The notes under the pieces: generated by a model
Told to the model about the DNA's origin: nothing
The model's database searches: none
Seen by the model: only the letters and a program-made list of their open reading frames with translations
Program-made: the position numbers and the translations under genes
Shown here: one piece after another, positions 2,688 through 8,797 of the stretch
Numbering within the stretch: the stretch's first letter is position 1
Layout of the letters: each line of letters starts with the position of its first letter
Virus record (IMG/VR): IMGVR_UViG_3300026519_000063
Location: 1-24,368 of that record
Length of the DNA: 24,368 nt
Strand: one strand, 5' to 3'
DNA from: a virus

Positions 2688-2902
2688 TGTTAGATATAAG
2701 CATAAAACAAAGAATGTATGTTGATTTATGGCATGCATGGTATGTTGAACACGGAGCGATAGCTTCATCAATTGAAATAGGACGACTAGCAGACAAAAGC
2801 CCTAGCACCGCTCAAAGTGCTATAAATAAGGCAATGATCAAAAATAATTGTAATACAATACATGAATTATTAACAAAAGATAAACAAATTATAGGAGAAT
2901 AA
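2687..2902 (+). CDS. Small helix-turn-helix-like protein (71 aa)
   Basis: It starts at a TAATG overlap with the NinB-like stop. Residues about 25-48 (SSIEIGRLADKSPSTAQSAI) look like a helix-turn-helix: a hydrophobic first helix, a turn at KSP and a second helix STAQSAINKA. This could be a small DNA-binding regulator, but the motif is weak. Its last codons (KQIIGE) lie inside the 33-nt direct repeat (2880-2912) that recurs upstream of ssb, so it was probably next to ssb before the pentapeptide gene arrived. Confidence 0.7.
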   Translation: MLDISIKQRMYVDLWHAWYVEHGAIASSIEIGRLADKSPSTAQSAINKAMIKNNCNTIHELLTKDKQIIGE

Positions 2903-2912
2903 AATAATGAAT
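2880..2912 (+). repeat. 33-nt direct repeat, copy 1 (RBS and start of pentapeptide gene)
   Basis: This segment is identical to 3597-3629. It contains the end of the HTH-like gene, the Shine-Dalgarno (TAGGAG) and the first two codons (ATG AAT) of the pentapeptide gene. Both copies are followed by different sequence. The pair brackets a 717-bp unit. Confidence 0.9.
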
Positions 2913-3611
2913 ACTGGTAATAGGAATACTGGTTATAGTAATACTGGTGAATGGAATACTGGTGATAGGAATACTGGTAACAGGAATACTGGTTATATGA
3001 ATACTGGTGACTGTAATACTGGTAACTGGAATACTGGTTATATGAATACTGGTAACTGGAATACTGGTGACTGGAATGCTGGTTATATGAATACTGGTAA
3101 CTGGAATGCTGGTGATAAGAATACTGGTAACAGGAATACTGGTGATGGGAATACTGGTGACTGGAATACTGGTGATGGGAATACTGGTTATATGAATACA
3201 ATAACACCAGAAGAAATACTAGTTTTTAATAAACCATTATCAAGAACTATATGGGATGCGGCAGAAAAGCCACTTTGGATTCATGCGACAATAACAAAGT
3301 GGGTAATAAGTGATAATATGTCAGAAAAAGAAAAAAAAGCTTACCCTAGTTACGTAACAACAGGAGGATATGTCAAGTCTTATACATGCCTAAAACATGC
3401 TTATGTTGATGCATGGGAAAAAGCAGATAAGGAAGACAGGGATAAGACTAAGTCATTGCCTAACTTTGATATAGATGTTTTTACAGAGATATTCGGCTTT
3501 AATCCATTTAAAGAAGAGAAAAAGGAAGTGACACTTAAATCAACAGAATATAAGCTAAATAAAATTAAACAAATTATAAATAAAATTAAACAAATTATAA
3601 ACAAATTATAG
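2907..3611 (+). CDS. Pentapeptide-repeat phage protein (NTGxx repeats plus conserved C-terminal domain)
   Basis: Residues 2-96 are 19 uninterrupted pentapeptides, mostly N-T-G-x-x (variants NAG), of the Pentapeptide_2 (XNXGX) type. A C-terminal domain (about 97-205) follows, with the segments TPEEILVFNKPLSRTIWDAA, VTTGGYVKSY and LPNFDIDVFTEIFG. This combination is common in hypothetical proteins of enterobacterial phages and prophages. Such repeats are thought to fold as a regular beta-solenoid; no function is established. The last 16 residues (twice NKIKQII) come from a 21-nt tandem duplication. The gene is bracketed by 33-nt direct repeats and looks like a late addition. The antisense frame through the repeats is not a gene. 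Confidence 0.85.
   Translation: MNTGNRNTGYSNTGEWNTGDRNTGNRNTGYMNTGDCNTGNWNTGYMNTGNWNTGDWNAGYMNTGNWNAGDKNTGNRNTGDGNTGDWNTGDGNTGYMNTITPEEILVFNKPLSRTIWDAAEKPLWIHATITKWVISDNMSEKEKKAYPSYVTTGGYVKSYTCLKHAYVDAWEKADKEDRDKTKSLPNFDIDVFTEIFGFNPFKEEKKEVTLKSTEYKLNKIKQIINKIKQIINKL
2910..3194 (+). repeat. 15-nt tandem repeat array (19 units) coding NTGxx
   Basis: Each unit is AATACTGGT plus two variable codons. The AAT ACT GGT core is almost invariant at third positions; the only core change is GCT for ACT, in units 12 and 14. This base-level uniformity implies recent expansion or homogenisation rather than old protein-level conservation. Confidence 0.92.
3560..3610 (+). repeat. 21-nt tandem repeat, about 2.4 copies, AT-rich
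   Basis: The unit TAAAATTAAACAAATTATAAA occurs at 3560-3580 and 3581-3601, followed by a partial copy CAAATTATA to 3610. The partial copy runs into the 33-nt direct repeat, so the tandem array appears to have grown out of it. It codes the last residues of the pentapeptide protein. An iteron role is conceivable but unsupported. Confidence 0.85.
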
Positions 3612-3629
3612 GAGAATAAAATAATGAAT
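3597..3629 (+). repeat. 33-nt direct repeat, copy 2 (RBS and start of ssb)
   Basis: This copy is identical to 2880-2912. Here the same bases provide the stop of the pentapeptide gene (TAG at 3609-3611), the TAGGAG ribosome-binding site and the first two codons of ssb. Identity stops abruptly on both sides (G/T on the left, A/T on the right). Confidence 0.9.
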
Positions 3630-4055
3630 TCAGTAAACAAAGTTATATTAATTGGTAATATTGGAAAAGATCCAGAGATAAGATCAATGCAAAATGGAAA
3701 CAGTGTAGCCAGTTTTCCTGTTGCTACGTCCGAAAGCTGGAAAGATAAATCAACTGGTGATTGGAAAGATAAAACAGAGTGGCATAACATTGTTGTTTTT
3801 AATCAGCACCTAGTTAAATTCTGTGAATCCCATCTTGAAAAAGGAATGAAAGTTTATATTGAAGGGGCATTAGAAACAAGAAAATGGCAAGATAAAAACG
3901 GAGTTGATAAATATACAACTGAAATTATGCTGAAGGCTTTCAAAGGTGAGATAACTTTGTTAAGCAAAAAGGAAGAAGATTCTCATAAAAATGAAACAGT
4001 CTCACCAACACCAGCACCAGTGCAAGATGATTTAGAAGATGAAATCCCATTCTAA
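3624..4055 (+). CDS. ssb: Single-stranded DNA-binding protein
   Basis: The 143-residue protein is a typical bacterial/phage SSB: an N-terminal OB fold (about 1-107) with [28 protein letters not shown] and [20 protein letters not shown], then a short Pro/Thr linker and the acidic tip DDLEDEIPF, which binds partner proteins. It coats ssDNA in replication and recombination and would work with the ERF and NinB-like products. The linker is shorter than in E. coli SSB (178 aa). The start has TAGGAG 8 nt upstream, within the direct repeat at 3597-3629. Confidence 0.97.
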
Positions 4056-4083
4056 TTTTATGCTCAAACAATTGGAGAGAGAT

Positions 4084-4278
4084 ATGAATAAAGTTAGGGA
4101 TGCTGTTTATTGGGCTGTTAGTGGTGCTGTTTGGAAGGCTGTTTTGGAGGCTGTTTATTGGGCTGTTAGGGGGGCTGTTCTGGAGGCTGTTTATTGGGCT
4201 GTTAGTGCGGCTGTTTGGGATGCTGTTAATGATGCTGTTGAAGACATCACAAATTTAAGGAACTGGGGTGAGATATGA
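4084..4278 (+). CDS. AVxx tetrapeptide-repeat protein (64 aa)
   Basis: From the ATG at 4084 (GGAGAG just upstream) the protein has Ala-Val every fourth residue from 7 to 52: twelve AVxx units such as AVYW, AVSG, AVLE and AVWD, followed by EDITNLRNWGEI. A longer in-frame start at 4039 would overlap the ssb end; its RBS is poor. At the DNA level this is a 12-nt repeat with GCTGTT almost constant, and the longer unit GCTGTTTATTGGGCTGTTAG occurs three times. A strict four-residue period predicts a helix with a slowly rotating hydrophobic stripe, suited to self-assembly or membrane contact. Similar repeats occur in other phage hypotheticals; the function is unknown. The stop overlaps the next gene by 4 nt. 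Confidence 0.7.
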   Translation: MNKVRDAVYWAVSGAVWKAVLEAVYWAVRGAVLEAVYWAVSAAVWDAVNDAVEDITNLRNWGEI

Positions 4279-4634
4279 AAAATATATCAACGTTAATATT
4301 GTTGTATATAAAATCTAGAAAGTATGATTTTACCTTTTTGGCAATCCATGAACATATAAAGAGGCATGGTTATGAAAATATATCTTATACAGATGTGAGG
4401 AGAAAAGTTTATTCATTATGTTCGACTGGTCATTTAAGAAGAGTTGCTAAGGGCGTATATACGAAAAGCTATCAACCAACAACAACACAAGTATATGAGT
4501 ATTTAATGGATAATAATATAAGCGGCTTTAATCATAGGGATGGTTTAACAGACAGGCTTGTAGACTATATAATAAAGAAGAAGTTTGATAAGGCTAATGA
4601 AAACCTAAGATGGTATGGGGGTATTAATAAATGA
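4275..4634 (+). CDS. Hypothetical protein with winged-helix-like N-terminus (119 aa)
   Basis: It is coupled to the previous gene by an ATGA junction. Residues about 1-65 have the pattern of a winged helix: helix (LILLYIKSRKYDFTFLAIHE), second helix, third helix (YTDVRRKVYSLCSTGHLRRV) and a short wing (AKGVYTKS). The remainder (TQVYEYLMDNNISGFNHRDG onward) is helical and basic. DNA binding is plausible, as a regulator or replication accessory. No specific family is recognised. Confidence 0.75.
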   Translation: MKNISTLILLYIKSRKYDFTFLAIHEHIKRHGYENISYTDVRRKVYSLCSTGHLRRVAKGVYTKSYQPTTTQVYEYLMDNNISGFNHRDGLTDRLVDYIIKKKFDKANENLRWYGGINK

Positions 4635-4798
4635 CAATAGGAAAAATACCTTTATTAATCATGATAAGTATATTATTTGTTGTAGTGATAAGCCAGCACC
4701 AAGACATACAAACAATGATTCATCCTGAAAATTGTGTTTTTGAAATACCTAGAATTAATGGTTTAGATTTAAAGCAATTGCCAATACCTAAATATTAA
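4631..4798 (+). CDS. Small membrane-anchored protein (55 aa)
   Basis: It starts at an ATGA overlap with the previous stop. One hydrophobic segment (about residues 5-21, IPLLIMISILFVVVIS) follows a very short N-terminus. A 34-residue polar tail with one Cys comes after it, giving an N-anchor topology with the tail probably in the periplasm. There is no lipobox. It could be a superinfection-exclusion or lysis accessory protein such as an inner-membrane spanin, but it lacks the long coiled coil of Rz. Function not assigned. Confidence 0.6.
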   Translation: MTIGKIPLLIMISILFVVVISQHQDIQTMIHPENCVFEIPRINGLDLKQLPIPKY

Positions 4799-4802
4799 TA
4801 TA

Positions 4803-4836
4803 AGATATATGAATTATATCTAGAGGATAATTCATG
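4803..4836 (+). promoter_or_regulatory. Alternative leader hairpins, one sequestering the start codon
   Basis: Hairpin A is AGATATA (4803-4809) with TATATCT (4815-4821), a perfect 7-bp stem with a 5-nt loop. Hairpin B is TATGAATTAT (4808-4817) with ATAATTCATG (4827-4836): nine Watson-Crick pairs plus one G-U, with the GAGG Shine-Dalgarno region in its 9-nt loop and the AUG fully paired. The two cannot form together. This has the layout of a translational switch for the gene at 4834, but the stems are AT-rich and stability was not computed. Confidence 0.4.
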
Positions 4837-4841
4837 AGTAC
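4824..4841 (+). repeat. 18-nt inverted repeat, plus-strand copy
   Basis: AGGATAATTCATGAGTAC at 4824-4841 recurs in inverted orientation at 6374-6391. In both places it holds the ribosome-binding site and the codons Met-Ser-Thr of a virion-type gene, and the two genes converge between the copies. Part of the similarity could reflect the common RBS style here (the gene at 6678 also has AAGGATAAT). Confidence 0.75.
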
Positions 4842-5619
4842 GTTGCTTAATAATTTTACAAGTAAAGACCCAATGTTAAATATAGCAAAAGGTGAAGTCC
4901 CTCATCATGAGCAATGGGAGGAATACGGTAAAGCACCAGACATAGATATAAGCACTGGAATTGTAGATATTTGGGGCATTAAATCAATTTATACAGGATT
5001 CCCTATAAATGACGTTGAAACTATGGAAATATTTTCTACATCTTTAAATGACACAGTATTGGGGACAGGGGCTAGAACTGTTGAGATCACTAACCTTCTT
5101 GACGTTAATGGTAATGAAATGCCTAACGTTGTTGTTAACATGAATGGTACAACACCAGTTTCACTAGGCTCACAAACATATTATCGTGGGGGAACTGTAG
5201 TTAAAGTGCTAACAGCTGGGTCAAGCGGTCAAAACATGGGCGATATAACACTAAGGCACACAACAACAACAAATAATATATTTTCATTTCTCCCTATTGG
5301 TAACAACCAATCATCAGTTTTAGCTTATACTGTACCCATGGGAAAGACTCTATATGTGAATCATATTTCCATACAAATGGCTAGGAATAATGGGGCAGCT
5401 GGATCGGCTCAAATGTCGGTTAGGGCAAGACCATATGGGGGCGTATTTAATGCCATAAAAGATCCAGAGATAAGCAACAGTTCCCCATACATGTTTGATG
5501 GTGGAGTTTATCATATATTCAAAGAAAGAACAGATATTAAGTTAAGTTGTGAAGATGTATCAGATAATAATACAATAATTACGGGAGACTTTGGGGGGGT
5601 ATTGGTAAATAATAATTAA
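4834..5619 (+). CDS. Phage virion structural protein (fibre/decoration type)
   Basis: The 261-residue protein resembles a class of phage structural proteins. It has an early VPHHEQWEEYGKAPDIDI and VDIWGI segment, then IYTGFP and VETMEIFSTSLNDT, then GARTVEITNLLD and VVNMNGTTPVSLGSQTYYRG, and a beta-rich C-terminal domain with VLAYTVPMGKTLYVNHISI. This mix of threonine-rich strands suggests a trimeric appendage or capsid-surface protein. It lies on the early strand, 35 nt after the membrane-protein gene, while all other virion genes are on the minus strand. GAGG sits 7 nt before the ATG. It ends at 5619, directly against the convergent gene that ends at 5620, with no terminator. Its expression timing is unclear. 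Confidence 0.75.
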   Translation: MSTLLNNFTSKDPMLNIAKGEVPHHEQWEEYGKAPDIDISTGIVDIWGIKSIYTGFPINDVETMEIFSTSLNDTVLGTGARTVEITNLLDVNGNEMPNVVVNMNGTTPVSLGSQTYYRGGTVVKVLTAGSSGQNMGDITLRHTTTTNNIFSFLPIGNNQSSVLAYTVPMGKTLYVNHISIQMARNNGAAGSAQMSVRARPYGGVFNAIKDPEISNSSPYMFDGGVYHIFKERTDIKLSCEDVSDNNTIITGDFGGVLVNNN

Positions 5620-6381
5620 CTATAAACCCCACTTCCTTAATAAATAATTATCTATTACAGATATTTCTAAATCAGATAATAATTTATTATAATAAATAAC
5701 TTCCGCTATTTGACCTTGATGTCCGAAAATATTTCCAGTAAAAGCTCCTATAACAACAATACCAGAATGAGCAGGCTTAGCGTTAGTTGTGCTTGATGCT
5801 AAAGACCAGGTACTAGGACTAATATCATTAGTTACAACGCCATTAATCCGTCCAACCTGACCAGCTCCTCCGCCCTCTATATTTAAAAATGGTTTAGTAT
5901 TATCAATAAAGCCATTAGCACAAGCAACATGATAATTACCACTAGACGCCGTAACATGTTGAATTAATGTGTCAACACCCCCTGTATAAGGATAAACATT
6001 AGTTTCTTTGAAAACTACAAATATAGTTGTTTCTGCCCCAGTAGTTAATGCAGGGGCTACTAAGTTATCAGTAGTGCTTCTATCAAAATCAATTACGTTT
6101 AAGCCATTTTGCGTAACTGATTTAGTTGTTGGTTGCCTTGATCCCGTAGCTTGAACAGCATGAGAACCATTACCAGACTTATCACTCCATTGGGATACTG
6201 CCCCTCCAACTTCTATAATTGTTGAATGATCTGCCGCATCGAGCCATAAACTAAGGTTATCAATTTGTTTAGGATTAACTATTCCCGTGACAGCAGTTCC
6301 AGTATACGGAGAACCCAACAATGTGCTTTCATTGTTTTCTGGTAATAATGTTCCACCTAATGGATTTATTAAAGTACTCAT
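5620..6381 (-). CDS. Concanavalin/LamG-like domain virion protein
   Basis: The 253-residue protein has a short Gly/Pro/Thr-rich N-terminus (about 1-40). A domain typical of concanavalin-like (LamG) jelly rolls in phage and marine proteins follows: LSLWLDAADHSTI, VSQWSDKSGNGSHAVQ, GLNVIDFD, TTIFVVFKE and the C-terminal GQIAEVIYYNKLLSDLEI. Such domains bind carbohydrate or decorate virions. It is the last gene of the late minus-strand operon; its SD (AAGGA) overlaps the stop of the preceding gene. It is likely a receptor-contact or capsid-surface protein. It shares only the start region with the convergent gene at 4834-5619. Confidence 0.75.
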   Translation of the reverse strand: MSTLINPLGGTLLPENNESTLLGSPYTGTAVTGIVNPKQIDNLSLWLDAADHSTIIEVGGAVSQWSDKSGNGSHAVQATGSRQPTTKSVTQNGLNVIDFDRSTTDNLVAPALTTGAETTIFVVFKETNVYPYTGGVDTLIQHVTASSGNYHVACANGFIDNTKPFLNIEGGGAGQVGRINGVVTNDISPSTWSLASSTTNAKPAHSGIVVIGAFTGNIFGHQGQIAEVIYYNKLLSDLEISVIDNYLLRKWGL

Positions 6382-6391
6382 GAATTATCCT
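6374..6391 (-). repeat. 18-nt inverted repeat, minus-strand copy
   Basis: This is the exact reverse complement of 4824-4841 and covers the RBS and first codons of the LamG-like gene. Exact identity ends at both flanks (A versus G upstream, T versus G downstream). Confidence 0.75.
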
Positions 6392-6678
6392 TTTTTAAAG
6401 GTTAAGTCTATAGTACCACTTGTAAAATTACCCGTCTTACAAAACAATCTGTACTCCCATTTACCAGAAACCAAACCAGTAGCTATATAACCATCGCCAT
6501 TATAGATTATTTCGTCATCATCAATCCATGCAGTAGTTCCATAAGGTCTTCCTTGTAACGTTATTGTGCCTACTCCAGAGTTACCTAGTGAAATTGTATA
6601 ATAATCAGTTACTAATATTGGATTAGTCCCTGTATTTTCAGCAGTTATTGAGGTAGTTTGTTCATTATTTACAGCCAT
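6385..6678 (-). CDS. Small beta-rich hypothetical protein, probably structural (97 aa)
   Basis: The protein begins MAVNNEQTTSITAENTGTNP and ends TIDLTFKKG. The pattern of Thr/Gly-rich strands (YYTISLGNSGVGTITLQGRP, GKWEYRLFCK) suggests an immunoglobulin-like or jelly-roll sandwich. AAAGGATAAT is the RBS. It sits between the lysis genes and the LamG-like virion gene, which suggests a virion or fibre accessory. No family recognised. Confidence 0.65.
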   Translation of the reverse strand: MAVNNEQTTSITAENTGTNPILVTDYYTISLGNSGVGTITLQGRPYGTTAWIDDDEIIYNGDGYIATGLVSGKWEYRLFCKTGNFTSGTIDLTFKKG

Positions 6679-6689
6679 TTTATTATCCT

Positions 6690-7163
6690 TTAATTGTTAA
6701 GTTTACGTTGTTTTGCTATATCCAAGCTTTTTCTAATAGCGGTTTTCTTTTTGGTTTTTATAATACTATCAGATTTTGCGTATTTCTGTAACACATCTTT
6801 TTTTATTTTGTACTTACCGAAATCCTTATGAAGCCTGCCACCGAAGAAGAATACCACAATTGTACCAAGAATCCACCATGCTTGATCTGGCATTAACTCT
6901 AAATTCCTTGCCCCATTAACAAAAGTCTCAGGGTCTAGCCAACACAAGACAAATAAATATATTGTACCAAAGGCGAATACTGGGCGTGGCAGGCGGTTTA
7001 ATCCATCTATGAGGCTATCAAACCAGTTGTTACTATTACCGAACTCACGGGCAAACTGTGAATGAATTGAAGTGTTTCTATCAGCATCATATTTATCCCG
7101 CTTCTCTTTGCTGCCAAAGAAAGATTTAATCATGTCACCAATAAAAGGAATGTATCTAATCAT
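6690..7163 (-). CDS. Holin, 3TM gene-transfer-agent type
   Basis: The protein is 157 aa from the ATG at 7163. This start is chosen because the previous gene's stop overlaps it (TGATG) and GGGGAAAA lies upstream. It matches the GTA_holin_3TM family: a KRDKYDADRN/FAREF amphipathic start, WFDSLIDGLNRLPRPVFAFG, two clear membrane segments (about 62-76 and 95-112, the second WWILGTIVVFFFGG) and a basic cytoplasmic tail (KYKIKKDVLQKY to the end). Holins open the inner membrane at lysis time so the endolysin can reach the cell wall. The neighbour upstream is the M15A endolysin, which supports the role. Confidence 0.85.
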   Translation of the reverse strand: MIRYIPFIGDMIKSFFGSKEKRDKYDADRNTSIHSQFAREFGNSNNWFDSLIDGLNRLPRPVFAFGTIYLFVLCWLDPETFVNGARNLELMPDQAWWILGTIVVFFFGGRLHKDFGKYKIKKDVLQKYAKSDSIIKTKKKTAIRKSLDIAKQRKLNN

Positions 7164-7555
7164 CAATATTTTCCCCAAAAACAAACTTGTTTCTTGCCAA
7201 TATCAACACGCCTATCTATATGAATAAAGCTCTTATACACACCAACCGACCAACCAAGATTCAAAGCAACCGCAACCATTTCTGTCCTCTGCTTATCGTT
7301 TTTGACAGCTAAATCTATAGCTAGCGTCCCTTGCCTACCGTCTCCAACATCTTCATAAATATGATAGCTTGTTTCTGATCCACCTATTTTTTTATTATGG
7401 GCAAACGATCTACAACACGAATTGACAATAAGCGGAAACCCCAAAGTCTCACGATATAACAATAGTTCACGTTCAAAATTAATGTCAAGCTCAACTATAT
7501 TTGTTGCTCTGCATTGTAACTCACTATCGCTAAAATAATCTGATAATTGACTCAT
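7163..7555 (-). CDS. M15A-family peptidase endolysin
   Basis: The 130-residue protein has the peptidase M15A layout: N-terminal FSDSELQCRAT, central NSCCRSFAHNKKIGG, zinc ligands H65 (SYH) and D81 (AIDLAV), and H112/D114 (FIHIDRR). Such enzymes cut peptide bonds in peptidoglycan cross-links. The usual SxHxxGxAxD spacing is stretched by about nine residues (YEDVGDGRQ), yet all ligands remain. The start at 7555 overlaps the upstream stop by one base (TGATG); two upstream in-frame starts (TTG 7585, ATG 7564) are less well placed. It lies between a coiled-coil/TM protein and the holin. Confidence 0.85.
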   Translation of the reverse strand: MSQLSDYFSDSELQCRATNIVELDINFERELLLYRETLGFPLIVNSCCRSFAHNKKIGGSETSYHIYEDVGDGRQGTLAIDLAVKNDKQRTEMVAVALNLGWSVGVYKSFIHIDRRVDIGKKQVCFWGKY

Positions 7556-7842
7556 CAAAACCATACCTTCATTATATACGCCCAACCAAGACTTATAACC
7601 GCAAATATACCAATGACTTTGTTTCTATCTTTTTTGTATCCCTCTATGTGAGGCTCAATCTTTGTTTCTATATGATTGTCAATCCTATCAATTCTTTTAT
7701 GAGCTGTTTTTGTAGCCTGTTCTGCAACGATCATTTTTTCATGCGCATTATCAACCTTGCTGTTAATAGCGTCAGTGTTTTTTATCAGATATTTAATATC
7801 AGTTCTTATCTCTGCGATACTTACATCATTATTTACAGTCAT
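7555..7842 (-). CDS. Coiled-coil protein with C-terminal membrane anchor (XhlA-like lysis protein)
   Basis: The 95 residues comprise an N-terminal helical coiled coil (about 5-70; TDIKYLIKNTDAINSKVDNA) and one C-terminal membrane helix (about 75-92, VIGIFAVISLGWAYIMKVWF). This is the layout of haemolysin XhlA-type and related phage lysis accessory proteins, which assist holins. Its start overlaps the DUF1353 stop by 4 nt and has GAGGA upstream. The lysis role is inferred from architecture and position. Confidence 0.65.
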   Translation of the reverse strand: MTVNNDVSIAEIRTDIKYLIKNTDAINSKVDNAHEKMIVAEQATKTAHKRIDRIDNHIETKIEPHIEGYKKDRNKVIGIFAVISLGWAYIMKVWF

Positions 7843-8243: not shown

Positions 8244-8797
8244 TTTGGCTTCTCCGCTCTAATTTTCTTCTTATTATCATAATCAAGCCGCACCTTTGCA
8301 GGCAACTCTTCTTTGGTAACAAGACCTTTACTGATGATTATATCCATCAAGTCTTCTGCAATACGAGGCAGTGAGTTATCGGACTCTTGCATTTTACGTT
8401 GCCAATCTTCCAAAGGTTTTTTGGCTTTTGCAGTATTAAAAGCTACTTGGTCTACCTTCCATTTTTTAAATTTTTTATCCCACACGTCAAATTCATTGGG
8501 TTTATCTAATGTGTATTCATCGTCTAAATCAGATATATCATTAACTATTCCAGCATACTCTTTTGTCATTACATTATATCTATCTTTACCTCTGGGATCA
8601 GAAATAACAGACCATGATTCTTCTTCATCACTAAATATACATATCTCACCAACCATACTTTCAGGTGGCGCAATAATTGTTGAATTAGCAGGATAATGCC
8701 AAACAGCCTTTGTTATTGGACACAACTTCGCTACACCTTGACCAATATATATTTTTGTTTTTTCATCATATAAATAAACTTGTTTTGTACTTTTCAT
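8240..8797 (-). CDS. Tail-fibre assembly-like protein
   Basis: The 185-residue protein follows the pattern of tail-fibre assembly/chaperone proteins: YLYDEKTKIYIGQG at the start, WHYPANSTIIAPP, then ESWSVISDPRGKDRYNV, and a helical C-terminal half (about 105-185) containing KPNEFDVWDKKFKKW. It directly follows the tail-fibre gene (11-nt gap, GAGG RBS), the usual place for a fibre chaperone. It may instead be a short structural tail protein with the same N-terminal motif. Confidence 0.65.
   Translation of the reverse strand: MKSTKQVYLYDEKTKIYIGQGVAKLCPITKAVWHYPANSTIIAPPESMVGEICIFSDEEESWSVISDPRGKDRYNVMTKEYAGIVNDISDLDDEYTLDKPNEFDVWDKKFKKWKVDQVAFNTAKAKKPLEDWQRKMQESDNSLPRIAEDLMDIIISKGLVTKEELPAKVRLDYDNKKKIRAEKPK

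Follow-up and report, generated by a model that had tools for sequence, protein, structure and literature searches.

The convergent genes at 4834-5619 and 5620-6381, whose start regions carry an 18-nt inverted repeat, are most economically read as fixed in place: two optional virion-type genes that have a start module in common. We put the probability of such an accessory pair at the 3' end of the late operon, with a start module that was either copied or reached by convergence, at roughly 0.72. An earlier sequence-only reading of this DNA had proposed that the two genes and their repeat form an invertible segment that switches a virion protein; in our view the arrangement of the genes is most likely fixed and fairly ordinary, and not a host-range switch.

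The convergent genes and their setting

The window analysed here is the whole IMG/VR record, a linear stretch of 24,368 bases that lacks end repeats; because circular related records measure 33-37 kb, the contig is probably incomplete. Its minus strand holds the late operon of a P22-like podovirus, encoding terminase, portal, scaffold-like, coat and head-closure proteins, a tail fibre, a fibre assembly protein and a DUF1353 protein. This operon continues through an M15 endolysin (7163-7561) and a holin (GTA_holin_3TM, E 2.4e-14; 6690-7184), which together make up a lysis module, to a small gene of 97 aa (6385-6678), decoration-like by position and size only, and immediately downstream of it a ConA/LamG-like virion protein gene of 253 aa (5620-6381), the last of the operon. 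The early genes lie on the plus strand, among them those for an Erf-type single-strand annealing recombinase (1479-2093), a NinB/Orf recombination mediator (2367-2687) and SSB (3624-4055). The plus-strand member of the pair, a 261-aa gene of the phrog_8198 family (4834-5619), directly follows a 55-aa ORF with a probable membrane segment and no family (4631-4798). As the sequence-only reading had described, the two genes are convergent and end at adjacent bases, their stop codons abutting at 5619/5620.

The minus-strand protein matched phrog_10356 (E 1.5e-23), a profile of virion structural proteins, and its predicted structure (pLDDT 70) had a ConA-like fold, with the tailspike of cyanopodophage Pan3 (9vyh, E 1.8e-7) as the top match. 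Pfam Laminin_G_3 was found in 4 of 28 of its relatives and was not detected in the 253-aa protein itself. One relative, from Pseudanabaena phage Pam2 (ON014754.1, H21), carries a neurotoxin name, which is probably a misannotation because the match spans the ConA/LamG-like region. Elsewhere (L089:10342-12345), two tandem LamG-like genes have an identical stretch of 37 nt around a possible start codon.

The phrog_8198 profile covered residues 14-260, nearly the whole of the plus-strand protein (E 1.5e-14), which is a probable accessory virion protein. Its model (pLDDT 88.5) was beta-rich after two short N-terminal helices; the good full-length structural neighbours were uncharacterised viral proteins only, and no solved structure matched over the full length, the PDB matches listed aligning poorly overall. 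We retrieved 80 viral relatives of this family. A search of viral contigs with the single protein gave no match, and a scan of genome contigs with the family alignment gave seven distant ones, mostly on MAG contigs. Annotated relatives occupied one of three places: the interval from terminase to portal, a position past the portal gene, or one close to where the tail genes end. The gene was co-oriented with most of its locus in 79 of the 80. Since the family is elsewhere almost always co-oriented with its neighbours, the plus-strand placement here is unusual. In the exception (L090:5549-7425), a phrog_8198 relative belongs to a three-gene cassette that runs against the capsid-region genes around it. 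The cassette resembles the present gene in opposing the late-gene strand, and differs from it in lying between capsid-region genes and in having ends that carry no long exact inverted repeat. The third-position composition of the plus-strand gene was also tried as a marker of early or late residence and failed to separate the two.

The sequence-only reading had taken the gene at 4834 to be a virion-type gene on the early strand, which agrees with the normal position of phrog_8198 in a virion operon. Its use of this term for both genes holds as far as family membership and genomic context go, and we infer a virion role for the two proteins from these two lines.

The slot at the end of the operon is optional. 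In L254 the late operon closes with the same M15-holin module (M15 73% identical), opposing early genes come next, and both the LamG-like and phrog_8198 genes are absent. Among seven coat-protein relatives the virion synteny was kept and neither protein was detected. Because these relatives do without them, the 97-aa, LamG-like and phrog_8198 genes are optional cargo at the operon end. Elsewhere, a different LamG-like gene follows the fibre region on the late strand in L079, a fibre gene, two small genes and a LamG-like gene share one strand in L214, and phrog_8198 precedes the fibre, on the late strand, in L190, L193 and L220. None of 80 relative loci anchored on the fibre contained the phrog_8198 and LamG-like genes as a pair.

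The inverted repeat and other shared start regions

The repeat, AGGATAATTCATGAGTAC, is located at 4824-4841 on the plus strand, with its inverted copy at 6374-6391 on the minus strand; as the sequence-only reading had reported, it runs over the ribosome-binding site (RBS) and the Met-Ser-Thr start of each gene, and the identity was exact at both sites. Each arm consists of a Shine-Dalgarno sequence, a spacer and ATG AGT AC, and the arms coincide precisely with the two outer limits of the convergent genes, 1.57 kb separating one outer end from the other. Among the exact inverted repeats of the window it ranks first in length, and its arms reach 28 nt at 86% identity once mismatches are admitted. 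The 18-mer was absent elsewhere in the window, even with three mismatches allowed, and an exact scan of 2.9 million viral contigs gave one match, an unrelated one on L070.

Exact non-overlapping inverted repeats of at least 18 nt were rare in shuffled sequence, occurring in 5 of 1000 dinucleotide shuffles, or 2 of 1000 with a spacer of 200-5000 nt, figures to be read for a repeat that was singled out from a large scan. Among unrelated AT-rich phage genes, 1 of 61,075 pairs of start contexts shared at least 18 nt (about 1.6e-5 per pair), so that about 0.004 would be expected for the approximately 220 opposite-strand gene pairs in the window. A pure coincidence of RBS style and Met-Ser-Thr, although possible, is disfavoured by both comparisons, and we kept it in the form of convergence; the repeat probably has a cause, pure chance being unlikely.

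The repeat contains an RBS, a spacer and the start of three codons, and nothing more. Past it, the two gene starts differ mostly at synonymous positions, the peptide MSTL(L/I)N being alike in both. The caveat of the sequence-only reading, that the identity is partly a matter of RBS style, was borne out: AGGATAAT also precedes the start at 6678, with another copy at 8690. ATGAGTAC also opens 2 of 80 homologs of the plus-strand gene (L088 and L097). Both AGGATAAT and ATGAGT are ordinary start elements in this genome.

A 9-nt dyad, ATGAATTAT and ATAATTCAT (4809-4835, plus strand), brackets the Shine-Dalgarno sequence of the left arm but not that of the right, both in the sequence and in the centroid fold, and could mask the RBS and start of the phrog_8198 gene in the mRNA. 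The energy of this fold was unexceptional (z about 0), and hairpins close to position 4800 or where the two stop codons meet did not stand out either.

A second pair of genes in this genome also shares a start region. The gene at 2907, which encodes pentapeptide-like repeats, and the SSB gene at 3624 have 31 identical nucleotides around their starts, in direct orientation, and because of that orientation this repeat cannot be an invertible segment; it looks like a trace of gene insertion. The sequence-only reading had held that many genes of this genome sharing one start context would count against a switch, and this pair goes part of the way, with a longer but direct match. In our survey, start repeats of at least 18 nt were seen in four of 25,884 same-strand pairs and in one of 9,219 opposite-strand pairs, the latter being the present case, so they were no rarer between same-strand genes than between opposite-strand ones. 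These phages thus have start-region repeats in the absence of an inversion system, and the 18-nt inverted one needs no special mechanism.

The surroundings of the direct repeat are themselves repetitive. The interval 2872-3629 comprises a gene of 15-nt tandem repeats (pentapeptide-like, with NTG motifs) between direct repeats of 41 nt (2872-2912 and 3589-3629, plus strand, 95% identity), each of which takes in the RBS and start of the gene that follows; the interval looks like an insertion scar. An ORF of 79 aa at 4039-4278 is made up mostly of 12-nt tandem repeats (AVYWAV..GAV-like) and had no Pfam match.

A fixed pair weighed against inversion

Under the fixed arrangement that we favour, the pair would have been added where the late operon meets the early operon, the LamG-like gene forming the last gene of the former and the phrog_8198 gene closing the early-strand run that opposes it. 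The 18 identical letters would then represent a translation-initiation module, a Shine-Dalgarno sequence with Met-Ser-Thr, common to both genes. One of them may have gained this module by copying, or by recombination over a short homology, in a phage with its own Erf, Orf and SSB genes; alternatively, both may have converged on it. No switching would take place, and any expression of either gene would come from the transcript of the strand on which it lies. We favour this arrangement because the repeat holds only an RBS, a spacer and start codons, because the same genome has the 31-nt direct start-region repeat, because close relatives and L254 leave the slot empty of both genes, because the opposite-strand phrog_8198 relative of L090 lacks a long exact inverted repeat, and because proteins of PF00239 and PF00589 are absent from the window. 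Against it stand the improbability of the repeat by chance and its placement exactly at the outer ends of the pair, the unusual strand of the phrog_8198 gene, the fact that a flip would be perfectly conservative and would restore a gene order common for this family, and the failure to find a terminator-like site anywhere from 4000 to 7000, so that a simple two-operon end is not demonstrated.

The same features can be accommodated, in our view quite improbably, by a programmed invertible segment in which a site-specific recombinase of phage or host flips 4824-6391 and thereby chooses a jelly-roll-like or a ConA-like virion protein for the late operon. Inversion of the segment in silico left both reading frames, RBS and starts intact and so exchanged whole genes, in agreement with what the sequence-only reading had predicted for the gene at 4834; this follows automatically, because the arms consist of an RBS and start codons. 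The flip would also place the phrog_8198 gene, elsewhere a late-strand gene, behind the small gene. A co-directional gene of 80-145 aa comes just before the gene in 47 of 73 members of the phrog_8198 family and in 25 of 38 of the LamG-like family, against a background of 26%, the family members counted not being independent. Because most members of both families follow such a gene, either gene would fit behind the 97-aa gene, and this is the best argument for the switch.

In known fibre switches the N-terminal part of the fibre is constant and lies outside the segment, and the invertase is encoded next to the segment; neither feature was seen here. The core of gix/hix-like sites is AAACCnnGGTTT; it was not found in the window with up to one mismatch, and a PinQ-type site appeared only at four mismatches (position 6432). 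The arms have no obvious dyad-symmetric core. A PF00589 tyrosine recombinase was found neither in the window nor in eleven related records, and a PF00239 serine recombinase neither in the window nor in close relatives; a PF00239 protein was present in one distant record only (MW202879.1), far from its phrog_8198 gene. The sequence-only reading had itself remarked on the lack of a site-specific recombinase in the window, and a recombinase encoded farther away or supplied by the host is conceivable; as this contig is probably incomplete, we keep the programmed switch under consideration. The IMG/VR, phage and genome collections yielded neither a flipped arrangement nor the same pair, a result with little power because no close relative with either gene was found. 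With no recombinase in the window, no flipped relative and arms made of translation signals only, the proposal that the segment is a switch was thus unsupported. Its fullest form, a whole-gene virion switch in a P22-like podovirus that uses translation-initiation regions as crossover sites, takes its recombinase in trans and leaves both coding sequences untouched, strikes us as very doubtful.

Alternatively, a rare or one-off inversion through the Erf system or template switching may have left the phrog_8198 gene on the early strand, which we regard as unlikely. The phage encodes Erf, Orf and SSB, the Erf of phage D3 is about equal to lambda Red in recombining diverged sequences (PMC3945230), and a small gene followed by the phrog_8198 gene in one operon is the usual order. 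However, 18 nt is shorter than the minimal efficient pairing segments of Red-beta (23-27 bp) and RecA (31-34 bp) (PMC3945230), making general recombination unlikely as a fast switch. This route also needs the inverted repeat to exist beforehand, and no relative with the uninverted order of both genes was found.

The nearest anatomical analogue is the e14 P segment, in which 16-bp arms around 1797 bp are acted on by cognate recombinases (PMC12529663), a layout comparable to the exact 18-nt arms at both starts here. As in e14 P (PinE/PinQ), Mu G (Gin) and P1 C (Cin), convergent virion genes lie between short inverted repeats, and inversion would swap the gene expressed from the late operon. Unlike in those systems, where the repeat lies within a fibre gene, the repeat here coincides with an RBS and start codon; the two genes come from unrelated families, and no invertase, gix/hix-like core or inversion was observed. 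The fixed pair instead resembles the short-homology traces of mosaic phages with Rad52-like recombinases (PMC3945230), in that Erf, SSB and Orf are encoded and start-region repeats, including the 31-nt direct one, lie at gene borders; it differs from them in that the copy is inverted and of only 18 nt, and a parental genome that would prove transfer was not found.

If the segment does flip, it would be a compact virion-protein switch whose crossover sites double as ribosome-binding sites, unlike the Mu/P1 layout. If it does not, it offers an example of short inverted repeats at convergent phage genes that are shared start signals, and scans for inverted repeats would need read support before a switch is claimed. 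In another locus, two divergent ORFs of equal length (120 aa; L210:1627 and 2366) have a 17-nt inverted match near their starts and are possibly an inverted duplication.
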